This document shows positions 6,669 to 64,000 of a stretch of DNA of 64,000 bases, piece after piece. The stretch comes from Xestospongia bergquistia (taxonomy: Eukaryota > Porifera > Demospongiae > Haplosclerida > Petrosiidae). The notes below the pieces were generated by a model, which was given only the letters and a program-made list of their open reading frames with translations, was not told the origin of the DNA and ran no database searches. The DNA lies in assembly GCA_963965975.1 (NCBI GenBank), contig OZ014413.1, forward strand, positions 1,428,501 through 1,492,500, written 5' to 3'. The stretch's first letter is position 1. Each line of letters opens with the position of its first letter. The position numbers and the translations under genes were made by a program.

Positions 6669-9600
6669 ATGAGTAGCAATCTTTCTGAGCGTCTTACCTT
6701 GGCGAGACTGCGTGAATTAGCCTCTTTATTATTGAGAGTGGAGTTTCCAGCTCCAACAAGAAGGATAGTGGAACCTCTGTTGGAACTTGTAAGAATATAA
6801 GATAGAGTACTTTTACATATCTCTATCAATGATGGATGAGCAGAGAAGAATGAAAGTTGAATGGACACATGAAACACAGGATAGACACGCCCACTCACTC
6901 ATCATTATTATTATTTATTAATACATTTTCAGTTGGTAGGTGGAGGGACGTTTGACTTGAAACAAAATTTCCTTATAAGGGAACCAGCTGCCGTTTTACT
7001 CATTTTAGAACTATTACCAAATCTCTCAGAAGACATCCAGGTAGGATAGGTAGACATACTTATTGATTATGTTTGCATGTACTATTATAATAATATTGCA
7101 GACTTGGTCTATTTGGACAGTATTATTTGACTAGTACTATAAAGCTAACAGATTATACAATATGTTTATAGACTACAGACCAAGTTTCACTGTGTACTAG
7201 ATAAGTAAACTCTTACTGCATGTGGTAATGGAAGGAGAAACTAATTAAATGAAGGTAATATAGAAAGTGAAAGTATTGCTAAAAGAAAGTCTTGATCAAT
7301 AACTAACTTATAAATATGTCTAGATATTTTAATTTAGCATTATATTACCTAATTACTTTATCTACAATAACTATAACCTAATTATATTGTGGTTCAAACT
7401 CTGTATGGGACAATTAGCTATCAGAGCTAGTTACACTTAATTATAGTTAATTACAGTTAGTTTTGCTCTCTTAGCAGATAATATAAATTACTTATATTTA
7501 TTTTTGCATGTTTAGAATAGTTTTAATTAGTTATAGTTAGTTTTACAATTTGTCATATTAGTTTTAATTAGTTATAGTTAGTTTTACAATTTGTCACAAT
7601 AGTTTTTGTTAGTTATAGTTAGTTAACTAAATATAAACAAAACACAACTAAAAAGATTTTATTTTAGCTATTGCTAAAATAATAAACATTGCTAAATAAA
7701 CAATGCTAGTTGTTATATATGTCAATGGTTAAAGGATGCAATTTAATTTTATTTGCCAATTTGATTATTGCATATGACAACACAACAAATTGACAAAAAC
7801 ATACACTGTTACATACAATATGTACATGTATAATATTTGTTCTAAAGCAATTATGACATGCTGCTCATACCGGGCAATAAAAAACATTCTTATTAATTAT
7901 CCAGTATGTCGTATTAATGATCCTGTTGTTTAGCTTTATTAATAGTCAAAGTGCTAGCAGATACACTAATGATCTGGCCATTGTCTCTAATGTCTTTTTC
8001 TTTAATATAGCTTGAGCTATGGAGTTCACTAGGAGCTATATTACACCAGTGTCAGTGCAATACTAGTGTTTGTCACCAGCTGGGACTAAGTGATAAGTGT
8101 CTGGAGTACTTAGCTAAATCAAAGAATCAGAGAGTTGCAGGTTAGTTGTGGGAGGAGAAAGAGAGAGGGGGAAGGAAGTGAAGCAGAGGAAGAGAGGAAG
8201 TGAAGAAGAGAAAAGAAGGAGAGAAGAAGTGGAGGAAGGAGAGAGGGAGGGAAAGAGGAAGTGAAAGAGGGAGGGAGGAAGAACTTCTAATGTACATTGT
8301 ATAATTATACATTTACATACTTATTAACTTATAGATGTTTCATCTCTTCATAATGCTATTATTTGTATATATAGGATATATTATATCAGTATTGGAGATA
8401 TTATCTTGTTATGGTATATCTGTCAAACAACTTAAATCTATTCTCTCATACCTATATACAAGTCAGGATGATGAGTACTGGGTAAGGAGAACCTCTAGAT
8501 AAATGGACATAGTCAATAGATGGATTAACAGATGAATTAAAAGAGAATGGATGGATGGAGAGACATGAGTAAAGACATATTTTACATTATTTTTTTTTTC
8601 AGGCTCCTCATTCAGTGTTGTTAATTGGTGTTTTAAATAACATAACAGTCGGAGTACAACCTGATATTTTCTTCAATTTTTCCGGAGGCCATGGAGTGGT
8701 AAAACAAGAAAATATATGATGGATGGATAACAACTTGTTGTGTTAAATTTAAATAAAATATTACTTCTTTTGAATTGTTATATAGACAGTTAACATTTGT
8801 TAATGAATGTTATATAAACAGTTAACATTTGTTAATGAATGTTATATAGACAGTTAACATTTGTTAATGAATGTTATTATATTAGATGTTATGATACTAG
8901 TTTCTATATAATTATAACATTGTTATTAGTTAGCACAAACACTACTAGATATAATCTAGTAATGTATAGTTATAAGATATGGTATTTAATTTGGGTACTC
9001 TTTCTCTCTTATAAGGTTCTTACTTTACCTCCAATGTCTAAGTTTCCTGGTCAGCCTGGATTTACGATATCAACATGGATATGTTGTGAAAAACCTTATG
9101 ATGCTCAAAGAGAATACTTTAAACCAGTAATATATTGGTAAATAGATGAATAGATAGATATGCACATAGTAAACTATTTATTGTGTTGCCTTTAGGTTAC
9201 GTACTGGTCGTGGTTTAGGATACTCTGCTCATTTTATTGGAAGTACTCTTGTATTAGAAACTGTTGGCAAGAATGTCAAGAAACCTCAAACACACGCTGT
9301 TGACTATATCTTTCACTCATATCAAGTAAAACAGTATCAAAGAATGTACTTAAATATCAAGTAATTCTTTGTTCTCTTTCAGTGGCATATGGTAACTGTT
9401 GTTTATTATCATCATCGGATACGTTCTAGTGAAGTATATTGTTATGTTGATGGAACATTAGCACTATCAGCTGAAGTGACATTACCACCTCATGATGAGG
9501 TATATACATACACTAATTGAGTCCATCCATCTCTGCAGCAGCCATGCATCAGTTTTATCTGTTGTCCATTTATCTATCTATTAATGCATTTAAATATCAC

Positions 9601-12007
9601 CTGATCTACTGATCTACTCAAACATACATACATTCATTCATTAATGTATCTATTTTATTAAGTTGGCTGACCACCATCTGCCCACTCATCTGTACATTTG
9701 TCCATCTCTTTATCTATTTTCATTTTCACTAATCTATCCTTTCATTCATTATCTAGAGATATGATAAATGTTTCTTTGGTGGTAGTCCAGTAGCCACTCC
9801 AGACTCAGTCTTTCAAGGTCAAATGGCAGCACTCTATATTTGGAGAGAACCACTAGGAAAGAACATTATTTCAGTATTGCATAAACTTGGACCTAAATAT
9901 CAGGTTAATACTGTAGATAAACATGTATATTATAGCTCAGGTTAATACTTTATATGTATAGTATAGCTCAGTTAATACTGTATATGTATAGTATAGCTCA
10001 GTTAATACTGTACATGTATAGTATAGCTCAGTTAATACTGTACATGTATAGTATAGCTCAGTTAATACTGTACATGTATAGTATAGTTCAGTTAATACTG
10101 TATATGTATAGTATAGTTCAGTTAATACTGTATATGTATAGTATAGCTCAGTTAATACTGTATATGTATAGTATAGCTCAGTTAATACTACATATGTATA
10201 GTATAGTTCAGTTAATACTACATATGTATAGTATAGCTCAGTTAATACTGTACATGTATAGTATAGTTCAGTTAATACTGTACATGTATAGTATAGTTCA
10301 GTTAATACTGTATATGTACATGTATAGTATAGCTCAGTTAATACTGTATATGTATAGTATAGCTCAGTTAATACTGTATATGTATAGTATAGCTCAGTTT
10401 ATACTGTACATGTATAGTATAGCTCAGTTAATACTGTACATGTATAGTATAGCTCAGTTAATACTGTACATGTATAGTATAGCTCAGTTAATACTGTATA
10501 TGTATAGTATAGCTCAGTTAATACTGTATATGTATAGTATAGCTCAGTTAATACTGTATATATACATGTATAGTATAGTTCAGTTAATACTACATATAAT
10601 ATATTGTATATAGTACTTATTATGTTAATTTAATATTGATCAATATAATTATAGTTATAGTGGACTAGACAATTAAACAGAAGACAAACAGATTAACAAA
10701 ATAAATTGAAGGATACAGTGTAATTGATAGACAAAGAAATAAGGGACTTGTACATGTATTGACAAAAGAATAACTTACATTATTTATAGCTCAATTTAAA
10801 TTTTATTATTTAGAAATATGAATACTGTAGTATGTAGGATAATAGGAGCAGTATAATTATATATGTTATAAGTATTAAATATTTCCTTTCTTTATGTTTG
10901 GTGTTCATTTCCATGCTACTAGAGCCAGTTCAAGTTTGAAGCTGAAGTTGATATTCCATTAACACCTTCTGAACAAAAGGTATCAGATACATGACGTACA
11001 GCTGCTCCATAAATTACCTTCTATTTCACTTCCGTTATCATAGATGTTATTTGATGGCAGTCTTGCTAGTTCACTTATTATCTCATACAATGCTAAGGCT
11101 GTTGATGGTCAACTCTGTCTTGAAGCTTCTCCTGCTGAGAATGAGTCCTACTTTGCTCATTCACCACATGCTACCATGTTAGAAGTATGTCATGTGACTG
11201 CCATGTGACACTCATGTAATATGTATGTGATTGTTTAATTTAGGGTGTTGATCCCATTGTGACAACATCAATTCACAGTGCATTGCATTCATTAGGTGGT
11301 ATCCAGGTAACTATTTAATAGATTATTGCTAAGAGACATTATATTATTACCTATTATTGCAGGCTTTATTTCCTTTATTTTCTCAATTGGATATTCCTCA
11401 ATTTATCTCCAAAGATGTCATATCCATTGACTATACACTAAGGTTTAATAGTTTGTCCATTATCCATCCATTTATCTATCTATCTATCCATCCATTGATC
11501 TATCTACCCATCTGTTCATATATCTATACATATCTCTATTCATCTATCAATCATATTCATTTCATATCTTATATCAATTATATAGTGTCAAATTATTGTC
11601 GTTGGTATTTGAGCTAGCTCGTAATTCAATTACTTACATGTTCCAGCTGGTCCAAATGAGAGCTTTAGAACTTATTTCATATCTATTGGAAAAGGTTAGT
11701 AATACATTCAAAGTGCTTGTATACATGCTTTAATACTGACTAATGTATTAATGCACATTTTAATTTTGTTAACTATTGATATGGTTCTTTATCATCTGAT
11801 TCAAACAATAGTTTGTCTATTATAAGTTCAATTTTTCAAATACTTATATTTTAGGTATCTCCTTTACACTTAACTGAAGATTTGTTATCCGCCATTTTTG
11901 ACTTCATGAGATATCTCTCCATGTCTTCATTCGGTGAAGAGCTATTACAACAGTTGATAGAACAACTATTGTTTAATGCTAGACTCTGGATTAAAGCTAG
12001 TAAAAAG
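6669..12007 (+). CDS. NBEA: Neurobeachin/LRBA-family protein, exon block 1 (exons 1-15)
   Basis: Fifteen exons join in phase: 6669-6788, 6933-7040, 8011-8140, 8375-8481, 8603-8698, 9016-9137, 9196-9325, 9383-9499, 9757-9903, 10923-10979, 11044-11184, 11244-11306, 11363-11442, 11586-11694 and 11855-12007. They give about 560 residues. The N-terminal armadillo-like region (LVGGGTFDLKQNFLI) leads into a concanavalin/LamG-like domain. That domain has PGQPGFTISTWI, GLGYSAHFIG, YDKCFFGGSP, GQMAALYIW and LCLEASPAENES, then ALHSLGGIQALFPLFSQLD. These match animal neurobeachin/LRBA, giant peripheral membrane proteins with a BEACH domain that act in vesicle trafficking. The start at 6669 fits because the first residues align near the family N-terminus. 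Exon 15 ends on a codon boundary at LFNARLWIKASKK, and the next exon lies 15.7 kb downstream. Confidence 0.9.
7519..7625. repeat. 41-bp tandem repeat in neurobeachin intron 2
   Basis: Two full units (7519-7559 and 7560-7600) and a partial third contain TTAGTTATAGTTAGTTTTAC. The rest of intron 2 (7041-8010) is AT-rich with no other feature seen. Confidence 0.8.
8150..8282 (+). repeat. Polypurine tract in neurobeachin intron 3
   Basis: About 130 bases are almost purely G and A on the plus strand (GGAAGTGAAG, GAGAGGAAG, GGGAGG repeats), with only rare T or C. Such tracts can form triplex DNA. It lies just after exon 3. Confidence 0.8.
8777..8872. repeat. Three copies of a 32-bp tandem repeat in neurobeachin intron 5
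   Basis: Units at 8777-8808, 8809-8840 and 8841-8872 share CAGTTAACATTTGTTAATGA. Copy 2 differs at one base (TATAAACA for TATAGACA). Confidence 0.9.
9936..10603. repeat. 30-bp minisatellite, about 22 units, in neurobeachin intron 9
   Basis: The unit contains TGTATAGTATAGCTCAGTTA followed by ATACTGTATA or ATACTGTACA. Variants change GCTCAG to GTTCAG, or TGTATA to TGTACA or CATATA. A few units are offset by a short TGTACA insertion (near 10316 and 10560). Because 30 is divisible by three, the plus strand reads open for 219 codons, but this is a periodicity artefact. Confidence 0.95.
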
Positions 12008-12762
12008 GTGAGTGAAATATGATACAATGTATACCTTTGGTTGAAGTAAATAAATACTTGTACATTTACATATATAGCACTGGTTTTAGATAGATCCCAA
12101 TAATACAATATACCAATACGTTGTAAGCCAAACTTATAAATTTTGAAAACTATTCTGTTGATATCATTATGCGCTAAGGGATTTTATATATCACAATGTA
12201 CGGTATCTAAAATGCGACATTTCCATACTGTTGCCACTCGAATGCTTTATGATAGGACTATTTGTTATCACCTTAGTAGAGTTGTACAATAACAATGTGA
12301 ACAGTGCTTGCAAAAAATTGAGCAATCATCATAACTTATTATATGGGACTAGACCTGCTGTATAGGGAATTCTTCAATTCTCACAGTGACAACTTTTTTG
12401 TATTACTATGAAAATATTCATTTCTTGTGCAACAAGAAATTTTCTTAACAAAATATACTTACTTCTCTCTTGTAAATGGAACTACTTTCTCAATTTCAAT
12501 CAAAATCATATGATAACACCATTTATTAGAATGATCTGATTGTTAAATGCCCACTTCTTTATTTTTTTGCTAACTTAATGATAGCTTGCTTATTGCAACT
12601 TTTCTTTTGACTGTTTTCTTAAAGACAAAGTCATTTATTTTATGCAGCAAATTGATGCTATAAAAAAATGAAATTATACTGTAAAATTGGGAAATGTTTC
12701 ACAGAAAATACTATTTAGCTTTCTTATTGAAGTATTCAAAATTATACTCAGATGACCAACTA

Positions 12763-13806
12763 TCAGTCTGTACTACTTATTGATCCATAAGATAGTTCAT
12801 GTTCTCTTTCATATTCTTCTTGGTCCAAATATCGCTCGTAATGATCTTCAGTTATTAAATAGACATTAATTGTTCTCTCTCTTATACGTAATTGATATTG
12901 TTTGGCAAAAATAATAAAAATAATTAAAATAGCGGAGAATAATATCAGTTCAGTTATGTCAGTATACAATTCACAGTTCAGCCATTTTGTGGATGATATG
13001 TTTTCAAATGGAATATATATGTTATAGCCTATCAGAAGTCCTAATGCAAGTGAAGCATAATACAAACCAATTGTTAATCCTTTCATTTTTTCAGGTGTTT
13101 GAGCAACACTAAACACCATTAAAGATACTACCAGTATAACTGAGCCTATTGCATATAGTAATCCCGGTAAAATGATCCAATGATAGTCTATTGGCAAAGT
13201 AATTGTGTCGTTTGTATATATACATTGCTGTGGTTTTTCTGATGCTGTATGTATGACAATGTCCAATGAGATTTCGATGATAAAGCTTAAAAAGATCAGA
13301 AAAACTCCTGTTCCAATAGCTTTTAACATAGTGGGTAGATATTTATAAAAGAAAGGATGAATAATAAAATAGAACACAGGTATTAATACTGTAAAAGCTA
13401 AATTAGGTGTCACTGAAATAATCAAGAAGAGTGACATGTAGATATTGTTTGGAATCATATAATTAAGCCATTGTTCTTTCATCTTACCAACTGGAAGGTA
13501 ATACAACATTGCACAAAGAAGCAGTGGAATCAATTGCAACACAGTCCTAACATCTTCCATGTCTTCTTCTGAGAAAGGTCCACCATATTTCTCTTTACCC
13601 AGGTCTAATCGTGAAGGATTGTCAACCTCCCAGTAGGTCAAGGCACTACAATGTTTGGGATATTTATTCTTCCTGGCATACTTGAGTACATGAGGAATAA
13701 GTTTGATAGGATTTGTAACTTGATGTGTAGTATTTAGCCAACGTTTACCAATATAGGAAACAATTGTTGTAGTTATAGAAAATATAACATTGTAATTAAT
13801 AACCAC
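12763..13806 (-). pseudogene. 5'-truncated POT/SLC15-like transporter (A1)
   Basis: The open frame of 347 residues corresponds to the C-terminal two thirds of the neighbouring 552-residue copy at 16164-17822. It starts at the membrane segment before KRWLNTTHQVTNPIKL and runs through GGPFSEEDMEDVRTVLQL, AQTPEKMKGLTIGL and the tail HYERYLDQEE. The first about 200 residues, including the GWIADxWxGRY loop and the NII-F-DQ segment, are missing. Upstream of the break the sequence matches the intergenic DNA upstream of copy A2 (near 15855-15920), so a deletion fused gene interior to intergenic DNA. The nominal start MVINYN is junction sequence. At least the first four membrane helices are absent, so transport is unlikely. 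Confidence 0.7.
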
Positions 13807-14065
13807 CTATTTATGTACAAGACGTTGATCAATACCACAATATAATATGTATACTCACAACAAAGTTTGTATGTACTTGTTGACAATATCACTAGTTTAA
13901 AAAAAAAAGAAAAATCTTTTTTTACTAACTAGTTACTAAACAAATAAACTATAGTTGTTATATTGTTTACATCATTGCTACCACAAAGATGTTTTATCTA
14001 ACCATACCTTTATATTTAATATGCAGACAAACTTGTTTGTAATTTTGTTTGTTATGTTCTTTGAC

Positions 14066-15694
14066 CTATGGCCCATAGCTATAGTCATTTTCTCTCCAGT
14101 AATCTTCTTCTTGATCCATATATCTCTCATAATGTTCCTCTGCTATTAAATGAACATTGATTTCTCTCTCTCTTATACGTAACTTGTAACGTTTAGCTAA
14201 CAATGAGAAGAGCATAATTATGGCGAGTGCTAGAACTATTTCAGTTAAATAATAATAAAAATCACAACTTAACCATGAAGACGATTTTATACTTTGAAAT
14301 GGGTAATTGAAGTTATATCCCATAAGTAATCCCAAACCATATAATGAATACCAAAGTCCTATAGTTAATCCTTTCATTTTTTGAGGTGTTTGTGCTGCAA
14401 CAAATTCAAGTGAAAAAATCTGCATTATTACATCACCCAGCGCATATAAACTCTGTGGTAATATCTGCCATTTGTAATCTAATGGTAAGATGACAGTCTC
14501 ATTACCAAGTAAACAGTCTATTGTATCATCAGCATGTACTCGAGCATATGTATCAAGACCAAAGTATGCTACTATACTAAGGAACAATATGATCGTTCCT
14601 ATAGCAACTTTAGTTAGCATTTTAGGAATGCATTTGTAGAATAACGGATTTATAACAAAATGGTATAATGGTACCATTACCACAAATGCCATACTGGGCA
14701 ATAAAAGATTAATTATACATGCATTAGTGAGGTTAAAGCTAGCATTGGCATATTGAAAAATAAGTGATGGACCTCCAGCAAGTCCTAGAGTTACCAAACA
14801 AACAAGGAGTGGTACCAATTGTAACACAGTCCTGACATCTTCCACTTCCTCTTCTGAGAAAGGTCCACCATATTTCTCTTTTCCCAGGTCTAATCGTGAA
14901 GGATAATTTTCCTCCCAGTAGGTGAATGCGCTACGATTTCTAGGATGTTTGTTCTTCCTGGCATAGGTAATCACTTGAACAATCAGTTTGATAGGATTTG
15001 TAACTCGATGTGTAGTATCAAGCCAACGTTTACCAATATAGAAAACAATTGTTGTAATTATAGAGAATACAATGCTTATAGGAACTGTGATATGTAATAT
15101 ATGTTTCTCTAGTAGAAGGAAACATCTTAAAAAATTACAAATACAGTTTGCAAAATATGATGGCCATATATTCCAATGAATGACAGCACTTAGCTCATCT
15201 CCTGAAGCACCAAGACATTGATCCAAAGAGAACTGAATGATATTAGCTGTGATAGCTGCATCACCAAACAGGGAGACTGACAAGCCTATATAAGCTAGCA
15301 CTTCAAAGACCTCGTGGCTAAACATTGAAACAGATGTATACGATGTCAAGGTAGCAGATACAGCTAATATATTGCCTACTAGACAAGTCCAGATACCCAC
15401 TTTTATAACTTGATACCTTCCAAGCCAAGCATCAGCTATCCAACCAGCTATAGGAGAAAAGAGTGTAAGTAATGACACAAGATATATGACAAAATGAAGT
15501 TCAAGTACTGTCGCTGCTATTGTTACAGTGGCATAAAGCATAGCTTGATTTCCAATGGATATCAATACCCTAACCAAAAGACATAGTATAGCTCCTTTAG
15601 AATGAATTCTTTGAGGATGATAGTTTAATTGACAGCTGATATTATCATCATTGCTCACTTCTCTCCTTTGCAGTAAAGTAACTGACTCACTCAT
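14066..15694 (-). CDS. POT/SLC15-like proton-dependent oligopeptide transporter family protein (A2)
   Basis: Single-exon gene of 542 residues with about 12 hydrophobic segments, the usual MFS/POT size. The second-loop motif GWIADAWLGRY is at 84-94 and ANIIQFSLDQ at 150-159. The long cytosolic central linker has NPIKLI, RNRSAFTYWEENYPSRLD and KYGGPFSEEEVEDVRTVL (about 234-291). The TM10 block SLEFVAAQTPQKMKGLTIGL is at 428-447. These place it near the SLC15A4-like/PTR2 branch, which carries peptides, histidine or similar solutes with protons. The TM1 motif ExxER is absent (ISIGNQAMLYA stands there) and the INxGS signature in TM5 is also lost, so substrate and coupling cannot be assigned. It lies antisense inside the neurobeachin gene. 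The start MSES is conserved with A3. Confidence 0.82.
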   Translation of the reverse strand: MSESVTLLQRREVSNDDNISCQLNYHPQRIHSKGAILCLLVRVLISIGNQAMLYATVTIAATVLELHFVIYLVSLLTLFSPIAGWIADAWLGRYQVIKVGIWTCLVGNILAVSATLTSYTSVSMFSHEVFEVLAYIGLSVSLFGDAAITANIIQFSLDQCLGASGDELSAVIHWNIWPSYFANCICNFLRCFLLLEKHILHITVPISIVFSIITTIVFYIGKRWLDTTHRVTNPIKLIVQVITYARKNKHPRNRSAFTYWEENYPSRLDLGKEKYGGPFSEEEVEDVRTVLQLVPLLVCLVTLGLAGGPSLIFQYANASFNLTNACIINLLLPSMAFVVMVPLYHFVINPLFYKCIPKMLTKVAIGTIILFLSIVAYFGLDTYARVHADDTIDCLLGNETVILPLDYKWQILPQSLYALGDVIMQIFSLEFVAAQTPQKMKGLTIGLWYSLYGLGLLMGYNFNYPFQSIKSSSWLSCDFYYYLTEIVLALAIIMLFSLLAKRYKLRIREREINVHLIAEEHYERYMDQEEDYWRENDYSYGP

Positions 15695-16163
15695 CTTTAA
15701 TAAGTAGATACTGAACTACTGCTTTGCTTTTACAGACTGTTTCGAATTGAAAGTGTACTTTTGTGAAAGTAACTTATTTTTATAAGTTGCAAGTATATTT
15801 TACCTAATGACTGTTTATGCTAGCAACTGTTATATAGACACTAAAGGTTATGTTAACATTGTAATTAGTGACCACATTTTAATTTATAGGACTTTGATCA
15901 ACATCACAATACAACATGTACACTCATCACAAAGTTTCCATGTACTTAATAAGAGTTTCACTTTTTGCAAAATAACATCTTTTGTTACTAACAAGTTATT
16001 AAACAAATGAACAACAAAATTATAACTGTTTTCTTAAAAGACAAACTCATTTATTATTTTTAAAAACTGTATTTATACTGTAAATTATGAAAATGTTTCA
16101 CACTAAATATTGTTTAACTCTCTCTTATTGAAGTATTCATAATTATATTCAGATGACCAACTA
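15695..16163. other. Intergenic spacer between A3 and A2, likely A2 promoter
   Basis: No gene is seen. The part near 15855-15920 is similar to sequence at 13795-13860 beyond the A1 break, which identifies the deletion in A1. The spacer must contain the A2 promoter and the 3' UTR of A3. Confidence 0.5.
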
Positions 16164-52776: not shown

Positions 52777-52859
52777 GGTTATATGGCCACTGATAAGATA
52801 GATTACCAATGGGTGTTATATAGAACACCTATTGGTATCTTATTAGTGGCCATGTAACC
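52777..52859. repeat. Hairpin upstream of exonuclease C2
   Basis: The left arm GGTTATATGGCCACTGATAA through CCAATGGGTGTT pairs with the right arm AACACCTATTGG through TTAGTGGCCATGTAACC. The loop is only a few bases (ATATAG). Counterparts lie upstream of C5 and C6. Confidence 0.85.
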
Positions 52860-53424
52860 ATACAATGTAAAAATTAACTCTTTTTATTTTAACAATTACT
52901 TTGTAGCTAATTTGGATGGATTACTATGGAATCCAACCCAAACTTCTAGTAAATCAATCATTGTATAATTAAATTTAATGTTTAGTAATAGTACAACATA
53001 CCAACAATTTAGACAGTTATTTGTTCACATAAGCTCTAGATTCAATAGTAATCTACTTATGTAAGCTACAACATAGTTATTAAAATACCTGATTAATTTT
53101 ATAGTGTAATATTTACATTAAAAGCATTCAATAATAATATCCAATGACAACAGATACTATAAACCTATCCTAAGGAACCAGACTCCTTTTGACTTTAGCT
53201 GACTATGTCAAAAAGCATAACATAATATGTAGTAGTCACATGCAAAGTTAAATAAGATCCCATTGGTTGTGTACAGATATCACTGTATGCAGTGTTACAT
53301 GGGACAATTGGTTGCCTTTTATTGTCGATGAGTCTCATTATATTGTATTAATTTAAATGAGTAAAAAATCTTCTTTAAAATTAATAATAAATGCGTTGTT
53401 AATAGTGAACAGTCAAAGATCATC

Positions 53425-53497
53425 TCACAAGTCACTTTCATCTTTTAACTTGTCATTATATTGTTGCTCTTCTAAGTTTCTGTGTTTTTTATGTTTG
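53425..53497 (-). pseudogene. Relic of the C-terminal end of a long-type exonuclease
   Basis: The minus strand reads FKHKKHRNLEEQQ and about nine more codons to a stop. This corresponds to the end of the long-type copy C7 at 61714-61770. The surrounding DNA 53284-53497 matches 61552-61770. The rest of the gene has been replaced by the repeat starting at 53499. Confidence 0.65.
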
Positions 53498-53498
53498 A

Positions 53499-53850
53499 AA
53501 TACAGACTTCATGTAGACATTTAAATCCAAGGAATTTCTAGGGTATAGTTTAAGTTGCCTACTATAAGTATTGATATGCCTAGAGAAAAGGTTATATCAG
53601 AACATCTCTTACCTTCAAGGAAACATAAATGACAGCTGTTCTTCTTAAGTGGTTGTTTTCACAGAAAAGAGTTATAAATGTGTACCAAATAAAAGCCAGC
53701 CTAAGTGGCTATAGATTTTAAAAGAAGCCTATGATTTACACAAAAGAGGCCCATCAACTGATAGTGCCAGCCAAATTCAAAGAAAGAGAAGGAGTGGTCA
53801 GTAAACCACTGATAAGAGCCAGGTGTACTAGTGGGTGTTTCATGAACACT
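53499..53850. repeat. Segmental duplicate of 50999-51400
   Basis: It matches the block described at 50999-51400 with about 40 bp deleted near 53625-53640. A 77-codon plus-strand frame here has no family support. Confidence 0.8.
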
Positions 53851-54646
53851 GTATTTGTCTATTCTTCAAACCATAAATCCATTTATGTTGCATTTGTAAA
53901 CACTGCCAAGTATTGTAACTCTCTTAGCACTTATGTACAATTACAAAATCACAATTATATTTAATTGAATTCTTAATATTAAAATCCATTTAGTCTTGTT
54001 AGTAGTCAGATTCAGGGTTGTGATATCTTGTTAACTTCACACAAATATCATCAACTTAAATGTGTATATTTTAATAATTGTTCCAACAACACAAGAAGGC
54101 CACTTAAATACAAGTGAAGTAACAAAAGACTAAAATTAAACATGATTAACAAATAATTGTGCTAAAAAGGGTTGACCTAATTAACAACTGAACCACAAAT
54201 GGATACCGTAAGAGTATAAATTTTCGTGGGGGATTTAATTTCGCTGTATTCATGGGTTGTTGTTCTATCACGAAATTTAACTTTTATTCCACCCACACAT
54301 AATCACGCAAAGGGATTCATGTCGGTCACTTCTTTCTCCTTTACACTGTCTGAAGTACTTCTCCATAAACTGCCTCCCAGATTTTCTTGTATATATGGTA
54401 CCCTCTCACCATGGATTTATAGGAATAGGTAGTCATATATCGCAAAAATCACGCTTGTGATCACAACACGTGTCTGATACTTCACACCCACTAAACACGA
54501 AAATTAATACCCACGAAATTTAAATAATAAAGCAAAATTTAAAAAACACAAAAATTTAAACCCTCGAAAATTTGTACCCTTACGGTATTTGTCAATAACA
54601 ATCATTTACACTAATAACAAATCTACAAACCATATGTGTATTGTAG
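53851..54646. other. Spacer with no recognisable gene
   Basis: AT-rich sequence between the duplicated block and the 3' end of C3. A pair of related motifs at 54206-54235 (TACCGTAAGAGTATAAATTT) and near 54565-54592 (AAATTTGTACCCTTACGGTA) are inverted with respect to each other. They bound a possible 385-bp foldback element with no ORF. Confidence 0.45.
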
Positions 54647-56604
54647 TTATAGTATATTACAAGTGTCTTCATCTTTGTAATAATAAGGTTCAGGTTCCTC
54701 GTCTTCTTCATAGTAATCAGGTTCAGGTTCTTCATTTTTTTCATAGTAATCATGCTCGGGTTCTTTGTCTTCATAGTAATTAGGCTCAGGTTCTTCATCT
54801 TCATAGTATTCAGGCTCAGATTCCTCGTCTTCTTCATAGTAATCAAGTTCAGGTTCTTCATCTTCATAGTATTCAGGTTCAGGTTCTTCATCTTCTTCAT
54901 AGTAATTAGGTTCAGTTTCTTCATCTTCATAGTATTCAGCCTCAGGTTCTTCGTCTTCTTCATAGTATTCAGGTTCAGGTTCTTCATCTTCATAGTAATC
55001 AGGGTCAGGTTCTTCGTCTTCTTCATAGTATTCGGGCTCAGGCTCTTCGTCTTCTTCATAGTATTCAATTTCAGGTTCTACTTCGTCTTCATAGTATTCA
55101 GGATCAGGTTCTTCATCTTCGTCATAGTAATTAGACTCAGGCTCTTCATCTTCTTCATAGTATTCAGGTTCAGGTTCTTCTTCGTCTTCATAGTATTCGG
55201 GATCAGGTTCTTCATCTTCGTCATAGTAATTAGACTCAGGCTCTTCATCTTCTTCATAGTAATCGGGTTCTTCATGTTCTTTATAGTAATCAAGCTCTAC
55301 CTTAGATTTTTCTCTAACATCTTCATATTTTAAGTCATCTGATTTTTTTACATGTAATTTGTCTCGTTCTTTTACCTGCCATTTAGCCATGCCTGGTTGG
55401 ATGTATTTACTTTGACATTTGTCAAAGCAGTAGGTTGAACAAGGAGTACTGTCAACTAACATTTGTACTTGGTCAAGTGACTGTTCTAAGCCATTGTGTT
55501 TCTCTTGTAACTTGCATGTATAAGCTCTCTCATTATGCTCCTCTTGAAACTGAAAGTGATTAACAATAGTGTTGATGACACGTTTATGTTTAGTAACACG
55601 TGGTTTACCATCCTCTCTTTCTTGTTTTAGTACTCTCTCCAGTCCCTGTACTCCTTCTTTCTTGTATACTTCTTTCAGATCTTCATATGCTAAGCCACTT
55701 TCTGCCATTTTATGAGCCATTTCACTTGTAATTTCTCTGTCTTTGTGTTGGCGTTTATCATTATATCGTTTTGGAGCTAAGGTCCCTTTAAATGTTTGAT
55801 TTCGTTTCTTGGTTTCACAATCAAACTTCATTCTTTTAATGAAAGATTTCACTGTACATGAATGAGAAAGGATGTGTTCAGTTGTCACGTGTAGCTGACT
55901 TTTAAAAAGAACCTTGTACAATGCTTGGACATCTTCAAATGCATCGTGTGCTGTATAGGAATCTCCAAATAAAGCAATATAGAGATTTGGTAGAGAAAGC
56001 GATTTCCCTTTATCACTTGTCAATACAGAATTACCTTTATGGCGCATTTCACGAAGAAGTAGGAGGCTGTCAGCAAAACCTATTTTTTTATCGCCAATGT
56101 CTTTGGATTAATCCCGGTACTAATAAAAGCGTTGATGAGGACTTGAGTATCAAAACTAAAAGCATTATGAGCTACTAAAAGTAATTTGGTGTTAGGATTT
56201 TCTTCAATGGCTTGTTCAGCCTGTTCACAAATGTAGTGATAGAATTGCTTTATCCCTTCTTCATAGGGAATGGACTTAACTTTCTTTCCATTCTTTGTCA
56301 TATATCGTTTGCCTTTGCTATTAACGTTTACTGAAAGCCCATTTACATTAGTTGCTCCAGGCATAACATCTTTATTAGGTAAAATATAATGTGTCCATTT
56401 TTTTATATGATCAGACATTGACAAAGCTGCTATTTGGCAAATATCAGCATCATAATTAAAGGAAGTGGTCTCCAAATCAAATAGCACAAGGAAGATATCA
56501 TCTGGTTGTTTTACTCTTACCACTTTGAAGTCTGGTTTAGTTAGGATAGGAGGATGTTTATAGTCATCGATAGCTGTAGTCAATTTCTTAGTAGCTGTAG
56601 CCAT
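54647..56604 (-). pseudogene. Long-type DEDDh exonuclease with acidic Tyr/Glu/Pro repeat tail, one frameshift (C3)
   Basis: The 5' part (56604 down to about 56100) has VLFDLETTSF (Exo I), then LLVAHNAFSFDTQVL (Exo II). A one-base shift at about 56090-56105 changes frame. The second frame continues IGFADSLLLLREMRHKG, YTAHDAFEDVQALY (Exo III, His and Asp present) and a helical module with ITSEMAHKMAESGLAYEDL and GKPRVTKHKRVINTIVNHF. A Cys-containing linker follows, then about 200 residues of repeats such as EEPEPEYYEEDEE and EPDPEYYEDE to a stop at 54647. All catalytic residues survive and 466 codons remain open after the shift, so it could be a real gene with a sequence error. The helical module is shared with C7. 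The tail is highly acidic and Tyr-rich; its role is unknown. Confidence 0.72.
54661..55290 (-). repeat. Coding microsatellite-like repeat for the acidic tail of C3
   Basis: On the plus strand the unit is a mix of TTCATCTTCTTCATAGTATT and CAGGTTCAGG of about 33-45 bp, with length always a multiple of three. Indels therefore keep the minus-strand frame while varying unit content. Confidence 0.85.
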
Positions 56605-56954
56605 TGGCCCTCTATTTTTTAAAAATTATCTTGAATATTGAATATATTCATATATATCTTCTTCCTGCCGGCGCCAATTATTACAATTATCAGACTAGTA
56701 GGTTGTACAAGTTTAGACAACCAGTATTGTGGTTGTTTGCATAATCAACAGATTCACTATTACCAGCTTGTTCATGTGGTAAAGTGGCTAATTCCTCAGT
56801 ACACAAAATACTGTTTCCATTTAATTTCTTTTTTCACAAAAGATGTGGATGCCTACATTGTAATAGACTAAAATACAACACACAGTATATACATACATGT
56901 TAGTATATAAATAACCCTAACACTACACCATAATATAGATAGACTTTAGATTTG
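56605..56954. repeat. Spacer dominated by the 51424-type interspersed repeat
   Basis: The 56658-56802 part matches 51424-51560 and 57870-58025 (ACAAGTTTAGACAACCAGTA, GTGGCTAATTCCTCAG). The rest is AT-rich and no gene is seen. Confidence 0.6.
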
Positions 56955-57447
56955 ATGAATAAGCAATAAACTGTCAGCAAAACCTATGTTCTTGTCTGCC
57001 AGTGTTTTGGGATCAATCATGACACTCTCCATAGCATTGATGAGAACTTCAGCATGAAAAACAAATGCAATATGAACTATAAGAAGTATTTTTGCTCTTT
57101 TTTTCACTGGAAAATTCCTTAGATAGATGACTGTAGAATTGTTTCAAGCCTTCTTCATAGGGAATAGCATCAACTTTCTCACCATTCTTAGTCAGAATAC
57201 ATTCTCCATCTTCCATCTCATCAACTCTGAAATGGTTGACTTCAGATGCTTGTGGGTCAACATTTTCACGAGGTAAGATAAAACATGTGCAAACTTTGGT
57301 AATGTTTGATAGAGATAAAGCTGCTATTTGGCAAATGTCAGGATCTATACAAAGTGAAGTGATTTCCTGATCAAATAGTACAAAGAAGATGTCTTCTGAT
57401 TGTTGTACTATTACTGAAACCAGTTTTGATTTAGTTGTTACTGCCAT
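56955..57447 (-). pseudogene. Broken exonuclease fragment (C4)
   Basis: The frame from 57447 reads FFVLFDQEITSL, where intact copies have FDLETT, so the Exo I Glu is displaced. It goes on through PDICQIAALSL and PYEEGLKQFYSHL, then shifts near 57095-57115. Beyond the shift the DNA still encodes an Exo II remnant (FHAEVLINAM) and DPKTLADKNIGFADSLLL down to about 56955. Exo III and everything after it are missing. It belongs to the long-type C3/C7 lineage by its PYEEG and IGFADSL signatures. Confidence 0.78.
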
Positions 57448-58195
57448 AAGTACCTGTAAAAATTATGAGTCACTTTCAGTCATATTCCTGTAATATCAGC
57501 TTAATCAGGAAGTTTTCTTTACAAATGTGGCTTATACTATTACTATGAATAAATGTTTGTTAGCATTGTCACATGTAATACAGCCATTACTGGGTAATAT
57601 GTTAAGTGTATGTCACTTTTGACAATTGTATATTCATGAAACTTGTCTAGTGGTTGTATTGAGTTTTGGTGCAAAAAATATTAATTCTTCCTGAAACTGT
57701 TATTATAAATATAAGTCTGTTATTATAATTAATTAGTCACACAGAGTTAGATTAGGAGAAGGTTTAATATCTATCAATAGTTATACCCAATTCTTCAATA
57801 GCTATGTCAATAGCTGTAACCATGCCACTCTAGTTTCTCCTAGTATTCTTGAATATTGGGTATAATCATGCTACTTCCTGCCAATTTTTATTGCAACAAT
57901 GAGACTGGTTTTGTGAACAGGTTGTACAAGTTTAGACAACCAGTATAGTGGGTATTTGTGTAATCAGCAGATTCTTAATTAACGTATTACCAACTTTTTA
58001 TGGTGGTAAAGTGGTTAATTCCTAAGTAGACAAAGTGTTGTGTTTACATTAGAAAAGAGTTTTCTTTTCAAAATGGGTGGATATCTAATAGACTAAATGT
58101 GTCACTCACTACATGTAACTACAATATGAATATTGTAGTATTAACAATACTACAGTTAGCATTGTTTTTAGATGGTACTACTGAAGACATATTGC
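57448..58195. other. Spacer with interspersed repeat, no gene seen
   Basis: The part 57870-58025 is a copy of the 51424-type repeat. Part of the sequence near 57600-57730 (GACAATTGTATAT, GTGCAAAAAATA, TTCTTCCTGAA) resembles 59410-59520, so the spacers of neighbouring genes share ancestry. Confidence 0.5.
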
Positions 58196-58966
58196 TTAAA
58201 CTTGACAAGCTGTAAATGTATTATTGCAAATGTTTGCTTTCGTAATACCCATTGGAGAATCAAATAAAACTCGTTTCATTGCTTTGACATCTTCAACAGC
58301 ATCATAAGCTGAATATTTCTCATTAAAAAACCACTTATAGAGAGAGGGTAATGATGCAGAAACCATTTGTTTTTCTGATTCATCTGTTTCTTCTTTTAAC
58401 AAAAAAAGTGATGGATTTTCTTTCTGGATGTCTTTGATAATGAGGAGACTATCAGCGAAAACAATATTTAATTTCATTAATTCGTCCCGAGTCACATTTA
58501 TTTTTGAAAAGGCATTGAGAAGTATTTTGGAATCAAATTCCTTCCCATTATGAGCTGTTAAAATAATACATGAAGTGGGGTCAGCTTGACAATATTTCTT
58601 TCTCAATTCAGTAAGATATTGATAAAAAAGGTTCAAACCCATTTCATACTGCTCAGCACAGACTGGCTTGCCACATTTTGTCAGTATGTTTTGGCCTTGT
58701 TCATCTTTCTCGAGTTTCAGTTTGTTGACACTTGAAGCGCCATCATTGATATTCTTTTGTGGGATAAGATACTTTGACCACATCTCCAGCTCTGGTTCCC
58801 CCATTGCCCATGCTGCTATTTGACAGATATCAGGATCATCTTCTAGTAATCCAGTTGTTTCTAAGTCAAACAGAACAACAACATCACTACTACTTGATGG
58901 AGTCTTTTTGCCAGTACTTTTTGCCATAGCTACACAGTAGTTGTCTGAACAAAGGAAATTCACCAT
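58196..58966 (-). CDS. DEDDh 3'-5' exonuclease (C5)
   Basis: Single-exon gene of 256 residues starting MVNFLCSDNY. Exo I is VVLFDLETTG, Exo II is LTAHNGKEFDSKIL and Exo III is SAYDAVEDVKAM. The His of the DEDDh set is replaced by Tyr (AYDAVED where C1, C2, C6 and C8 have AHDA). The general-base His is normally essential, so this copy could be catalytically weak or inactive despite an intact frame. A DEDDy arrangement has its Tyr at the equivalent position, so activity cannot be excluded. The middle resembles C1 (YLTELRKKYCQ, LIIKDIQKENPSLF), whereas the N-terminus resembles C2 and C6, suggesting a mosaic. A hairpin lies about 275 bp upstream. Antisense to the host. Confidence 0.8.
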   Translation of the reverse strand: MVNFLCSDNYCVAMAKSTGKKTPSSSSDVVVLFDLETTGLLEDDPDICQIAAWAMGEPELEMWSKYLIPQKNINDGASSVNKLKLEKDEQGQNILTKCGKPVCAEQYEMGLNLFYQYLTELRKKYCQADPTSCIILTAHNGKEFDSKILLNAFSKINVTRDELMKLNIVFADSLLIIKDIQKENPSLFLLKEETDESEKQMVSASLPSLYKWFFNEKYSAYDAVEDVKAMKRVLFDSPMGITKANICNNTFTACQV

Positions 58967-59238
58967 AAATAAATGTTAGACTTACAAGTTTAAAATTTTA
59001 TTACTTATTCAGACATTTCTTACCTTATTTTAACTAGGTTCAGCTCACTTAAATTTGAAGTTTATGGTAACAAACAAAGATTAATTGTTCTCAAGAGATT
59101 GTTATTCTAGTTAAGAGTTAGAATGCAATCTTACTTACACGTCCTTGATAAATGTCACTCTGATTTAATAACACTCTTATTGTTGAGTACCGATTTTCAA
59201 GAACACTGCCTGACAGTTATTCATTGGAAGCATGGAGT

Positions 59239-59321
59239 GGTTATATGGCCACTGATAAGATAGATTACCAATGGGTGTTATATAGAACACCCATTGATAT
59301 CTTATTAGTGGTCAAGTAACC
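59239..59321. repeat. Hairpin upstream of exonuclease C5
   Basis: The arms match the hairpin at 52777-52859 (GGTTATATGGCCACTGATAA against TTATTAGTGGTCAAGTAACC) with a few mismatches. Confidence 0.82.
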
Positions 59322-60189
59322 ATACAATGAACAATTAATTCTTTATTTTAACAATTACTTTGTAGCTAATTTGGATGGATTACTATGGAATCCAACCTAA
59401 TATGTGAAGAATATGCCACTTTTGACAATTGTATATGTTTAGGGTTTGTAGTGAGTTTTGGCGCAAAAAAATAGTTCTTCCTGAATCTGTTTTTGTAAAC
59501 TCTGTTATTATAATTAGTTGGTCAGGTTTAGTTAGAATAGAAAAAGGTTTAATTTATATTTATTCATAGTTATAGCCAATTCATTGGTAGCTATATCAGT
59601 AGCTATATTCATGGCACTCTAGTTTCTCCTAGCATTGAACCACTATAGATTTTAAAACAAGACTGATTTACATAAAGCCACCCATCAAATGATAGTGCTT
59701 GCCAAATTCAAAGGAAAAGGAGTGGTCAGTAAACCACTGATAAGAGCCAGGTGTACCAGTGTGTATTTCTGTGATTAGTATACATTTTCACTGAATATTG
59801 AGTATAACATAGAGTTCTTTTTGATAAAACCTTATAGTTTTAGTTTAATTTTAGTATACATTTGTAAAAAGGTTTAGTTCCTGGTTTAGTTTCAGTATTG
59901 TTTGAAGATTTATTTTAATTTCAGTTTAGTTTTAGTGAGTTTGTTTCAAAGAAGCACTACAAGTCTTAATATGGTATTGTCAAATTTGTTTGTTGTAAGT
60001 AGCTTGGCAAATGCTTCATGTGTTTTGTAAGACTAATTATTTGTTATAGGTAGTAGGAAGTACAAATTAAATTTTCCTTATATTATCAGGACTTGATATG
60101 TATTTAGGTTTATAGTTAAAATTAATGTTTAGTTTGTATCCTAAAATTTTTTACCAAAATATCTAATAAAGGTGGCTAATTCCTCAGCA

Positions 60190-60241
<52 letters not shown>

Positions 60242-60374
60242 AGTTAAATATATATGAATATATTTAACTACAGTATGATTTTATACATAATATAGTAAGT
60301 ACACAGAAATAAAGCTAATCTAATTAGAGTCGTTAATACAATCATTTATAGATAATGAAGTCATTGTATTCTCT
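59322..60374. other. Spacer with repeats, no gene seen
   Basis: The spacer holds a copy of the TAAACCACTGATAAGAGCC repeat (59685-59765), a stretch rich in TAGTTTTAGTTTAATTTTAG, and a (TA)n run at about 60197-60237. The last 100 bp resemble the 3' flank of C8 (63080-63195). Confidence 0.55.
60197..60237. repeat. (TA)n microsatellite
   Basis: About 20 perfect TA dinucleotides. A shorter run occurs at about 62863-62884 in the equivalent place between C8 and C7. Confidence 0.95.
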
Positions 60375-61133
60375 TTAAGCATCAAAAGCTGAAAATGTAT
60401 TGTTACAAATGGTTTCCTTAGTAACACATAAGGGTGATTCAAACAGGACTTGTTTCATCGCTTTAACATCTTCAATAGCATCATGAGCTGAAAAATCCTT
60501 ACCAAAAAACCTCTTGTAGAGAGAAGATAGTGCTTTACTAACTTTTGGTTGCTTTCTAGGGCTATCTGTTTCTTCAATATTCAAGAAAACCAATGGATTC
60601 TCTTTCTCTATTTTCTTAATTATGAGGAAGCTATCTGCGAAACAAATATTTAATTTTGTTAAATGTTCTCTAGTGACATTTATTTTTTCAAGAGCATTGA
60701 GAAGTACTGGGACATCAAATTTCTTTGCATTATGAGCAATTAAAATAATGCGCGAATTGGGATTAGTTTGTTTCCTAAGCTCATGAAGATGTTGATAGAA
60801 TCGATATATACCTGCTTCGTACTGCTCAGCTTTAACTGGTTTGCCATATTTTGTCAATATATCCTTGCCTTGTTTATCTTTCTCAACTTTTAGATTGTTG
60901 ATTCTAGAAGCGCCATCATCAATGTTCTTTTGTGGGATAAGATACTTTGACCACACCTCTGGTTCTCCCATTGTCCATGCTGCTATTTGACAGATATCAG
61001 GATCATCTTTTAGTAATCCAGTTGTTTCTAAGTCAAACAGAACGACAACATCACTAATATTTGATGGAATGATTTTGCCACTGCTTGTTGCCATAGCTAC
61101 CCAGTGATTGTCTGAATGAAGGGAATTCACCAT
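60375..61133 (-). CDS. DEDDh 3'-5' exonuclease (C6)
   Basis: Single-exon gene of 252 residues starting MVNSLHSDNHWVAMATSSGK. The catalytic set is complete: FDLETTG, LIAHNAKKFDVPVL and SAHDAIEDVKAM, with CFADSFLI in between. It is very close to C2 and C8. The insert before the final helices (FLNIEETDSPRKQPK) and the C-terminus CNNTFSAFDA are near-identical to theirs. The second Met (MATSSGK, residue 14) is an alternative start, as in C2. The 5' flank shares a hairpin about 278 bp upstream and the conserved CTCAAGAGATTGTT block. Likely an active nuclease; substrate unknown. Antisense to the host neurobeachin gene. Confidence 0.82.
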   Translation of the reverse strand: MVNSLHSDNHWVAMATSSGKIIPSNISDVVVLFDLETTGLLKDDPDICQIAAWTMGEPEVWSKYLIPQKNIDDGASRINNLKVEKDKQGKDILTKYGKPVKAEQYEAGIYRFYQHLHELRKQTNPNSRIILIAHNAKKFDVPVLLNALEKINVTREHLTKLNICFADSFLIIKKIEKENPLVFLNIEETDSPRKQPKVSKALSSLYKRFFGKDFSAHDAIEDVKAMKQVLFESPLCVTKETICNNTFSAFDA

Positions 61134-61410
61134 AAATAAATGTTAGACTTAAAAGCTTTATTACTTACTAAGACAATTCTTACCTTTTTTTAACTAGGCT
61201 CAGTTCACTTAAACTTGAAGTTTACAGTTACAAACCAAGTTTAATTGTTCTCAAGAGATTGTTGTTCTAGTTAAGAGTTAGAATGAAACCTTACTTACAT
61301 GTCCTTGATAAATGTCACTCTGATTTAATAACACTCTTATTGTTGAGTACCGATTTTCGAGAACACCCCTCAAACTGCTTCCTGACAGTTATTCATAGGA
61401 AGTAAGGAGT

Positions 61411-61492
61411 GGTTATATGGCCACTGATAAGATAGATTACCAATGGGTGTTCTATAGAACATCATTAGTATCTTATTAGTGGTCAAGTAACC
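61411..61492. repeat. Hairpin upstream of exonuclease C6
   Basis: Third copy of the 52777-type hairpin. The left arm is intact; the central part (AACATCATTAGTATC) is more diverged than in the other two copies. Confidence 0.78.
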
Positions 61493-61713
61493 ATACAATG
61501 TAAAAATTAACTCTTTTTATTTTAACAATTACTTTGTAACTAATTTGGATTTGTATGCAGTGTTAAATGGGACAATTGGTTCCCTTTTATTGTCACTGAG
61601 TCTCATTATATTGTATTAATTTAAATGAGTAAAAAAATCTTCTTTAAAATTAATAATAAATGCGTTGTTAATAGTGAACAGTCAAAGGTCATCTCACAAG
61701 TCACTTTCATCTT

Positions 61714-62774
61714 TTAACTTGTCATCATTTGTTGCTCTTCTAAGTTTCTGTGTTTTTTATGTTTGAAATGATTGAAAATAGTGTTAATGATTCTTCTATC
61801 TTTAGTAACATGTGGTTTGCCATTCTCCAGTCTTTCTTTTAACACTCCCTCTAAACCTTCTTCTCCTTTTTTCTCATATACTTCCACTAGATCTTGGTAT
61901 ACCAAACCACTCTCTGCCATTTTACAAGTTATATGTCTGGTGACCTGTCTATCTTTGTCCTTGGGTGTAGAATAATATGGCAATGGAGCTAAACTTCTTT
62001 CAAATGATCTTTTAGCACTTTCTTTGTCAAATTCAATTCTTTCAGTTGAAAAAGTCACAGTACATGAATGAGAAAGGAAATGTTCTTTAGTCATTTTGAG
62101 TCTACTTTTAAGAGAATGTTATATAATGCTTTGACGTCATTAACTGCATATTTTATGAGGGGCTTATACATTGTTGTATGAATATCATCTACTATAAAAG
62201 TATCATCATCATACACTATGTAGCAGTCCTCGTCAAATACAATATAACAATCATTGTCAAATACAATATAGCAGTCCTCATCTTTTTCTGGTTGATAGTC
62301 CTCTCTTTGTCCTTGAAAACAGTGCATTGAATAGCTACCTTCATCTTTTAATGGATACATTTTTTCATGGTTTCCTGAATGGTAGTCTTTGTTATATCCT
62401 GGATAGTATTCTCCAAATAAAGCATAATGTAAATTTGACAAAGCAAGGGATTCTCCTTTTTCACCACTCAAGATGGGGTCACCTATGCGACGCAATTCGT
62501 GAAGAAGTGAGAGGCTGTCAGCGAAACCTATAATATTCTCCAATGTCTTCACATCGATCCCAACACTGATAAAAGCATTAACAAGAACTCGAGCACTAAA
62601 GCTTATGGCTTTGTGACCTACTAAAAGTATGATAGTGTTAAAATATTCTTTAGAAGTTTGTTCAGCTAGTTGACAAAGATATTGATAAAATGATTTTATC
62701 CCTTCTTCATAGGGAAGAGACTCAACTTTCTTACCATTTTTTCTCATATGACTTTCATTGTTAAAATATTTCAC
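61714..62774 (-). pseudogene. Broken long-type exonuclease with repeat insertion (C7)
   Basis: The 5' end, including Exo I, is missing: the frame starts within KNGKKVESLPYEEGIKSFYQ, abutting an interspersed repeat. Exo II reads LVGHKAISFSARVL, so its Asp is Ser. IGFADSLSLLHEL follows. An inserted stretch then encodes repeats such as DEDCYIVFD and DNDCYIVFD. What should be Exo III has become IKYAVNDVKALY, without the His. A shift at about 62091-62094 leads to the helical module HITCKMAESGLVYQDLVEVY and GKPHVTKDRRIINTIFNHF, ending at 61714. Loss of catalytic residues plus a frameshift mark it as dead, although both frames are long. Confidence 0.8.
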
Positions 62775-63195
62775 TAAAATGTCTTAATGATTCTGATAAA
62801 GGTGGCTAATTCCCCAGTGTTTATATTAAGAAAAGTATGCTTTCATTAGTTGTGGACATCTAATATATATATATATATATATATAACACATATATATGTG
62901 TGTATGTATACATGAGTGTATTTAACTGCAGTATGATTTTATATATAATATAACAATTAGCATTGTGAAGGAAGACTATAGTTTACACAAAAGAGACCCA
63001 TCAAGTGATAGTGCCTGCCAATTTTATAGGAAAAGAAGTGGTCAATCAACCACTGATAAGAGCCAGTTGTATATATGAATATATTTAACTACATTATGAT
63101 TTTATACATAATATAACAAGTACACAGAAATAAAGCTAATCTAATTAGCATTGTTAATATAATCATTTATAGACAATAAAGTCATTGTATTCTCT
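62775..63195. other. Spacer between C8 and C7, repeats only
   Basis: It contains the GTGGCTAATTCC repeat end, a short (TA)n run, a copy of the CCACTGATAAGAGCC repeat (62995-63070) and the 3' flank shared with C6. No gene is seen. Confidence 0.55.
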
Positions 63196-64000
63196 TCAAA
63201 CTTCAAAAGCTGAAAATGTATTGTTATAAATGGTTTCCTTAGTAACACCTAATGGTGACTCAAATAGAACTTGTCTCATTGCTTTAACATCTTCAATAGC
63301 ATCATGAGCTGAATAATTCTCACCAAAAAACCTCTTGTAGAGAGAAGATAGCGCTTTGCTAACTTTTGGTTTCTTTCTAGGGCTATCTGTTTCTTCAATA
63401 TTCATGAAAACTAATGGATTCTCTTTCTCTATTTTCTCAATTATGAGGAGGCTATCTGCGAAAAAGATATTTAATTTTGTTAAATGTTCTCGAGTCACAT
63501 TTATTTTTTCAAGAGCATTGAGAAGTACTGGGACGTCAAATTTCTTCCCATTATGAGCAATTAAAATAATGCGCGAATTGGGATTAGTTTGTTTCCTAAG
63601 CTCATGAAGATGTTGATAAAATTGATATATACCTGCTTCGTACTGTTCAGCTTTAACTGGTATGCCATATTTTGTCAATATATCCTTGCCTTGTCTATCT
63701 TTCTCAACTTTTAATTTGTTTATTCTTGAAGCGCCATCATTGATGTTCTTTTGTGGGATAAGATACTTTGACCACACCTCTGGTTCTTCCATTGCCCATG
63801 CTGCTATTTGACAGATATCAGGATCATCTTCTAGTAATCCAGTTGTTTCTAAGTCAAACAGAACGACAACATCACTACTACTTGATAGAGCTAAACTTCC
63901 TTCAAATGATCTTTTACAAATAGCGTTTCCTTTGTTGAATTCAATTATTTCAGTCAAAGAAGTCACAGTACATGAATGAGAAAGGAAGTGTTCTTTGGTA
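63196..64000 (-). CDS. DEDDh 3'-5' exonuclease with chimeric N-terminus (C8), open to window edge
   Basis: From an ATG at 63966 the frame gives 256 residues, but the same frame stays open to the window edge. The catalytic set is complete: FDLETTG, LIAHNGKKFDVPVL and SAHDAIEDVKAM. The first 27 residues do not match the C2/C6 N-terminus. With the codons upstream they read TKEHFLSHSCTVT then EFNKGNAICKRSFEGSLAL. That is the segment which, in long-type copies C3 and C7, lies after the exonuclease domain. The gene is thus a fusion joining the post-nuclease region of a long-type copy in frame to a short-type nuclease domain at the SSSSDVVVLF boundary. If the upstream part is intact, the product would have two tandem nuclease domains. 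Confidence 0.75.
   Translation of the reverse strand, partial: TKEHFLSHSCTVTSLTEIIEFNKGNAICKRSFEGSLALSSSSDVVVLFDLETTGLLEDDPDICQIAAWAMEEPEVWSKYLIPQKNINDGASRINKLKVEKDRQGKDILTKYGIPVKAEQYEAGIYQFYQHLHELRKQTNPNSRIILIAHNGKKFDVPVLLNALEKINVTREHLTKLNIFFADSLLIIEKIEKENPLVFMNIEETDSPRKKPKVSKALSSLYKRFFGENYSAHDAIEDVKAMRQVLFESPLGVTKETIYNNTFSAFEV

Follow-up and report, generated by a model that had tools for sequence, protein, structure and literature searches.

In the sponge Xestospongia bergquistia, one neurobeachin/LRBA gene carries three arrays of nested genes in three long introns, two of them filled with POT transporters and the third with DEDDh-type exonucleases. The explanation that we consider probable is that several founders landed separately in this single gene, and that birth-and-death arrays then developed in place. 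The stretch of DNA analysed (hereafter, the window) is 64,000 nucleotides long and corresponds to positions 1428501-1492500 of contig C3, in a genome of 146 Mb represented by 21 contigs; positions are given in window numbering unless another contig or locus is named, and the features are collected in Table 1.

The host was modelled as a chain of exons scored on codon usage and splice sites, with the arrays excised beforehand, and therefore the joining of exons by this chain is, by itself, no evidence of splicing. The model follows a single host frame on the plus strand, from 6669 to approximately 72184. In domain scans, the first part of the spliced product matches the Neurobeachin solenoid, Laminin_G_3 and DUF4704 (E 5.6e-41), and the later part matches, in this order, DUF1088, PH_BEACH and BEACH (E 1.5e-114, over the whole profile). 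The BEACH region aligns to structure 1t77 of LRBA (E 1.8e-125) and to structure 1mi1 of neurobeachin (E 4e-123). Taking into account the ordered domains and these alignments, the host is, as judged from its sequence, a neurobeachin/LRBA gene. A PDB search using the N-terminal part of the host as query returned no match. C-terminal WD40 repeats are also a trait of neurobeachin/LRBA proteins.

The first-pass annotation had counted 43 host exons in the window, a figure that is possible but not established, conservative chain settings yielding 32 exons and lenient settings 40 or 45. A putative exon of the first model (9997-10567) was dropped, this region being a minisatellite; the repeat, which lies in a host intron (9923-10573) and consists of 21 units of 30 bp, has open frames on either strand and looks like an exon. 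In the second host model, the final three exons (72678 onward) are doubtful and are not relied on here. Two tRNA genes are predicted in ordinary short host introns, at 48369-48454 and at L010:4043-4130 (L010:1399 being equivalent to position 65399). Elsewhere in the genome, two neighbouring BEACH-domain loci with near-equal scores are located at C8:943481-952703, and look like a recent duplication.

The introns of the host are short with three exceptions, as originally described. Thus, among 47 introns (first model, minus one false exon), 44 measure 47-1203 bp and three are long, the median of all of them being 173 bp. The third long intron had been followed only to the end of the window, as an intron of at least 14.6 kb, and a BEACH exon was to be sought further on; BEACH exons indeed start at 66747, the intron spanning 49394-66746, and with them the idea that the exonuclease array is merely adjacent to the host was rejected. 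Nested homologous sequence occupies 69%, 71% and 54% of long introns 1, 2 and 3, respectively.

Nesting, as opposed to adjacency, was upheld for the three arrays, and is well supported at the sequence level by the continuous host frame and by different evidence at each junction. Junction 1, located after query residue 455, falls inside a single DUF4704 stretch (388-569), and junction 3, after query residue 391, falls inside a single BEACH alignment (353-658). No significant domain spans junction 2, which follows residue 137 of the query used for junction 3, a looser scan giving the same result; the nearest match beyond it is DUF1088, which begins at residue 188, about 50 residues on. In this case, the support comes from a strong donor, a modest acceptor score, the conservation of phase, and the ordered host domains on either side. 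Contiguous matches to neurobeachin had been claimed for the flanks of both arrays 1 and 2; a domain match crosses junction 1, and none crosses junction 2. The content proposed for each intron was borne out by domain and sequence matches, with POT genes in arrays 1 and 2 and DEDDh-type exonucleases in array 3. According to the many full-length open copies and to pairwise dN/dS values below 1, these arrays are not chance open frames.

Table 1. Host exon blocks, long introns and nested copies in the neurobeachin/LRBA gene (window numbering; exon counts per block are those of the conservative model with 32 exons in the window)
Feature	Position	Strand	Description
Host exon block 1	6669..12007	+	13 exons; Neurobeachin solenoid, Laminin_G_3, start of DUF4704
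Long intron 1	12008..27743	+	15736 bp; phase 0; contains POT array 1
POT A1a	12766..13833	-	truncated
POT A1a	14066..15694	-	open ORF, 542 aa
POT A1a	16164..17822	-	open ORF, 552 aa
POT A1b	18628..20284	+	decayed: three frames, stops
POT A1a	20639..22267	-	in-frame stop
POT A1b	23583..25265	+	open ORF, 560 aa
POT A1a	25638..27218	-	open ORF, 526 aa; corresponds to residues 24-541 in the 542-aa relative
Host exon block 2	27744..32085	+	13 exons; remainder of DUF4704 and linker
Long intron 2	32086..47343	+	15258 bp; phase 0; contains POT array 2
POT A2	32522..34116	+	split over two frames
POT A2	34781..36400	+	decayed
POT A2	36761..38359	+	open ORF, 532 aa
POT A2	38709..40307	+	open ORF, 532 aa
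POT A2	40665..42262	+	split over two frames
POT A2	42753..43760	+	decayed, gapped
POT A2	44602..44808	+	5' fragment
POT A2	44977..46575	+	open ORF, 532 aa
Host exon block 3	47344..49393	+	6 exons; DUF1088, PH_BEACH, start of BEACH
Long intron 3	49394..64000 (part in window)	+	17353 bp overall, to 66746; phase 1; contains exonuclease array
Exonuclease A type	49596..50498	-	complete DEDDh motifs
Exonuclease A type	51735..52490	-	complete DEDDh motifs
Exonuclease B type (EXO + PML_C)	54647..56604	-	split over two frames; long acidic repeat tail
Exonuclease B type	56949..57462	-	fragment
Exonuclease A type	58196..58966	-	ExoIII histidine replaced by tyrosine
Exonuclease A type	60375..61133	-	complete DEDDh motifs; structure predicted
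Exonuclease B type	61717..62783	-	degenerate
Open frame, 530 residues	63199-64788 (window part 63196..64000)	-	degenerate B-type EXO and complete A-type EXO
Exonuclease B 65399	65399-66469 (L010:1399-2469)	-	complete DEDDh motifs and PML_C

Arrays 1 and 2 contain 15 copies of POT (SLC15-like) genes, seven with open full frames and eight broken or cut. Five of these copies belong to group A1a (three open, all on the minus strand), two to A1b (one open, both on the plus strand) and eight to A2 (three open, all on the plus strand). When 12 ORFs from both arrays were submitted to a domain search, PF00854 was above its cut-off in 10; no match to this profile was obtained for ORF 21527-22222 nor for ORF 44977, yet the latter is 83% identical to 36761. 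In a sequence search against solved structures, the best match of POT 14066 was to SLC15A4 chains (E 7.7e-20). An ExxER proton-binding motif in helix 1 is a trait of the POT/SLC15 family.

The two arrays differ in their layout and in the divergence of their copies. In array 1, a block formed by A1b and A1a occurs twice (18628-22267 and 23583-27218), and pairwise dS ranges from 0.74 to saturation, with dN/dS values of 0.29-0.36 in four of six pairs, the other two being saturated. In array 2, the starts of successive copies are 1.95-2.3 kb apart, one extra fragment excepted, pairwise dS is 0.08-0.19, and dN/dS is 0.38-0.62, one of the four sequences compared being the portion of a broken copy that is still open. 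Nearly five identical 37-bp units, probably recent, are found at 17962-18142, where they separate an A1a copy from an A1b copy.

Since the stretch directly upstream of the start codon is common to the copies of array 2, its sequence suggests that each of these units carries its own promoter. When the regions upstream of POT genes were compared by eye between nested and outside copies, nothing informative emerged. Poly(A) signals lend no support either, AATAAA being present within 250 bases downstream of 8 of 21 nested copies versus 30% at random positions. In array 2, this hexamer is rarer in the host sense than in antisense (0.98 versus 3.21 per kb, uncorrected for composition).

The relationships of the POT copies were analysed in a tree of 27 proteins, seven of them nested and 20 taken from elsewhere in the genome, where there are at least 148 loci outside the host (at least 153 minus five nested). 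In this tree, A1a and A2 form separate clades with full support, and A1b groups with copies from contigs C1 and C6 (98/95), on which the best five matches of A1b outside the host are also located (47-49% identity). AU tests were carried out on the same set minus one long, partial entry, that is, with 19 outside loci. A single POT founder for arrays 1 and 2 was rejected, the constraint of the seven nested POT proteins to one clade giving a p value of 8.3e-5; joining A1a to A1b gave 5.2e-5, A1a to A2 0.0023, and A1b to A2 0.031, this last being the weakest separation. Together with the exonucleases, three separate POT lineages would make at least four lineages in this host, a count that is supported by the sequences, A1b being only weakly separated from A2. 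The repeated colonisation put forward in the first-pass annotation is therefore reinforced as to the number of founders, and it is equally true that the arrays run in both sense and antisense, with one orientation for each lineage (A1a and exonucleases on the minus strand, A1b and A2 on the plus strand). The tree gives no direction, and so does not tell arrival from export; besides, A1a or A2 may have closer relatives outside the host, the tree sample covering 20 of the at least 148 outside loci.

POT-like genes are massively expanded in this genome, chiefly on C3, and most of them are open in a single frame. Including the nested copies, the loci found number at least 153 and form at least 69 clusters, with at least 76 loci and at least 31 clusters on C3. 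Three C3 clusters, out of at least 68 others in the genome, were sampled, and the 5.8-kb flanks of each contained different predicted genes: a WW protein and a helicase, both on the plus strand; a minus-strand frame without Pfam match and THOC2 on the plus strand; and DUF716 and PAF-acetylhydrolase on the minus strand and GH79 on the plus strand. Thus, the idea that POT clusters are generally intronic was not borne out, all three sampled clusters lying between different genes.

Array 3 consists of ten exonuclease copies of the TREX/Plex9/Exuperantia type, a type whose fold was also borne out by structure prediction, and 14 of the 17 matches to these exonucleases in the genome lie in host intron 3; as judged from the genome sequence, this subfamily is private to the host gene. 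The DEDDh set (D-x-E in ExoI, D in ExoII, H and D in ExoIII) is complete in a single frame in five of the ten copies and over two frames in another one, the exceptions being the H to Y change in 58196, the degenerate copies 64788 and 62783, and the fragment 57462. Among five A-type exonucleases, dN/dS is 0.25-0.44 and dS 0.16-0.72. The open frame that combines a B-type and an A-type EXO could be a fusion gene. In one B-type frame, a 33/63/126-bp repeat (54666-55297) encodes the long acidic tail (EYYEEDEEPEP-like).

The B-type copy 65399 is the most interesting loose end. After its EXO domain it contains a PML_C match (E 4.4e-14, residues 281-345), SAM_Exu remaining below its cut-off, and its structural matches mostly cover model residues 21-258. 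The PXL structure of PML-1 is absent among the structure-search matches listed, which says nothing on the fold. The interest of this copy arises from a 2026 preprint (PMC12934764), the available text of which names the pseudo-nuclease Exuperantia alone as having an EXO/SAM arrangement similar to the one in PML-1, describes PML-1 as inactive, and attributes a conserved DEDD set to neither of them. In contrast to Plex9.1/TREX1 and to the EXO(-SAM) of Exuperantia/PML-1, the sequence of B 65399 keeps all DEDDh motifs beside PML_C.

The following history can be proposed for these arrays. Four founders with coding introns absent or nearly so, three of them divergent POT/SLC15-like genes and the fourth an exonuclease of the TREX/Plex9/Exuperantia type, would have arrived independently in three introns of the host that were then short. 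We infer that they came in instead of going out, either as retrocopies or as DNA copies. Each founder would then have multiplied in place through unequal exchange and through tandem and block duplication, and other copies would have decayed piecemeal, in a process of birth and death; the mixture of open and decayed copies and the pairwise constraint are read directly from the sequences. Transcription of the host presumably still runs through the arrays, 15-17 kb being spliced out each time, and the nested genes would presumably be expressed from their own short upstream regions.

Compatible with this history is the idea that POT genes are so numerous and scattered on C3 that several lineages could meet in one gene without any special property of neurobeachin, to which we give close to an even chance. 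With founders placed at random, the expected number of 65.5-kb stretches of C3 (the size that the host has now) containing at least three of them is 0.14 for 31 founders, 1.7 for 76, and 9.8 for a supposed 150. However, if the host is considered at its size before the arrays (about 17 kb), these expectations fall to 0.01, 0.15 and 1.07; moreover, the exonuclease array represents a fourth, unrelated lineage, and the other C3 clusters sampled sit between different genes. In view of the expectations for large POT numbers, the meeting of these lineages in one gene is somewhat surprising at most, and not decisive. The same expectations weaken the proposal that neurobeachin/LRBA is a hot host, whose transcription would keep its introns open so that arrivals are tolerated and expressed, by analogy with Mab21 elsewhere. 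Four lineages in three introns would fit this proposal, as would the nesting of Mab21 in Lrba/Nbea of metazoans (as mentioned in the available text of PMC11449124 and PMC11511899), but chance could account for the lineage count, and we regard it as rather unlikely. A search of the genome for the Mab-21 domain gave no match, and neither did the control genomes, so its absence is not shown. A bolder version, to which we give a little less credit still, would make neurobeachin/LRBA a true landing and breeding site, where open transcribed introns let unrelated families survive and expand, sheltering a whole exonuclease subfamily that includes an EXO and PML_C protein as the active state from which the PML-1/Exuperantia pseudo-nuclease modules could derive.

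It might also be thought that the POT lineages were born inside the neurobeachin introns and later exported, the tree being directionless and the outside sisters of A1b being conceivable exports. Nevertheless, the sampled POT copies from outside the host show more diversity than those nested in it, and large clusters exist on C3, C4, C8 and C14, which makes this route improbable. A misplacement of the arrays into the host during assembly is the least credible of all: tandem arrays are a usual cause of misassembly, but no specific sign of it was found, the contig measures 11.5 Mb in an assembly of 21 contigs, in-phase host exons flank every array, and the outermost copies are 202-768 bp from them. 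Separate landings followed by birth and death in place thus continue to be our preferred explanation.

An expanding intron-poor family within another gene is already known in mammals, in which the KRTAP10 cluster lies inside TSPEAR; that case is alike in being a cluster in another gene, but it involves one family, versus two families and several founder lineages here. The nesting of Mab21 in Lrba/Nbea (Tsang et al. 2009, as cited in PMC5559528, PMC11449124 and PMC11511899) concerns the same host family, with a gene inside the host locus. Nevertheless, as far as those citations go, it involves one gene, the title speaking of a nested pair conserved in evolution, whereas the present host contains three arrays of unrelated families, each with several copies, some of them decayed. 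According to the available text of two genome papers (PMC10282587, PMC8527503), nested genes amount to 2432 (12.4% of genes) in the glass sponge Aphrocallistes vastus and to 12.24% of exonic bases in the ctenophore Hormiphora californensis. These are similar in that they occupy introns of their hosts, in some cases with the same orientation as the host, in compact genomes, many sponge genes being single-exon; however, that text gives overall numbers and one example of a host with four genes, whereas here 25 copies of two families occupy three introns of one host. Searches of the open-licence literature turned up no description of comparable gene arrays within introns of neurobeachin. The arrangement had been called unusual, which is too strong for nesting as such, since nested genes are common in early-branching animals, Mab21 in Lrba/Nbea is known, and the POT numbers could make it a matter of chance; what stands is the degree, the arrangement being of a known kind in an extreme form.

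This gene is a clear example of a host with at least four lineages, distributed over three introns and both orientations, and with copies of differing age, as indicated by dS. Thus, read-through, the way in which introns full of genes are spliced, and how well nested genes are tolerated become directly testable with cDNA, and the exonuclease array bears on the origin of the PML/Exuperantia pseudo-nuclease module.
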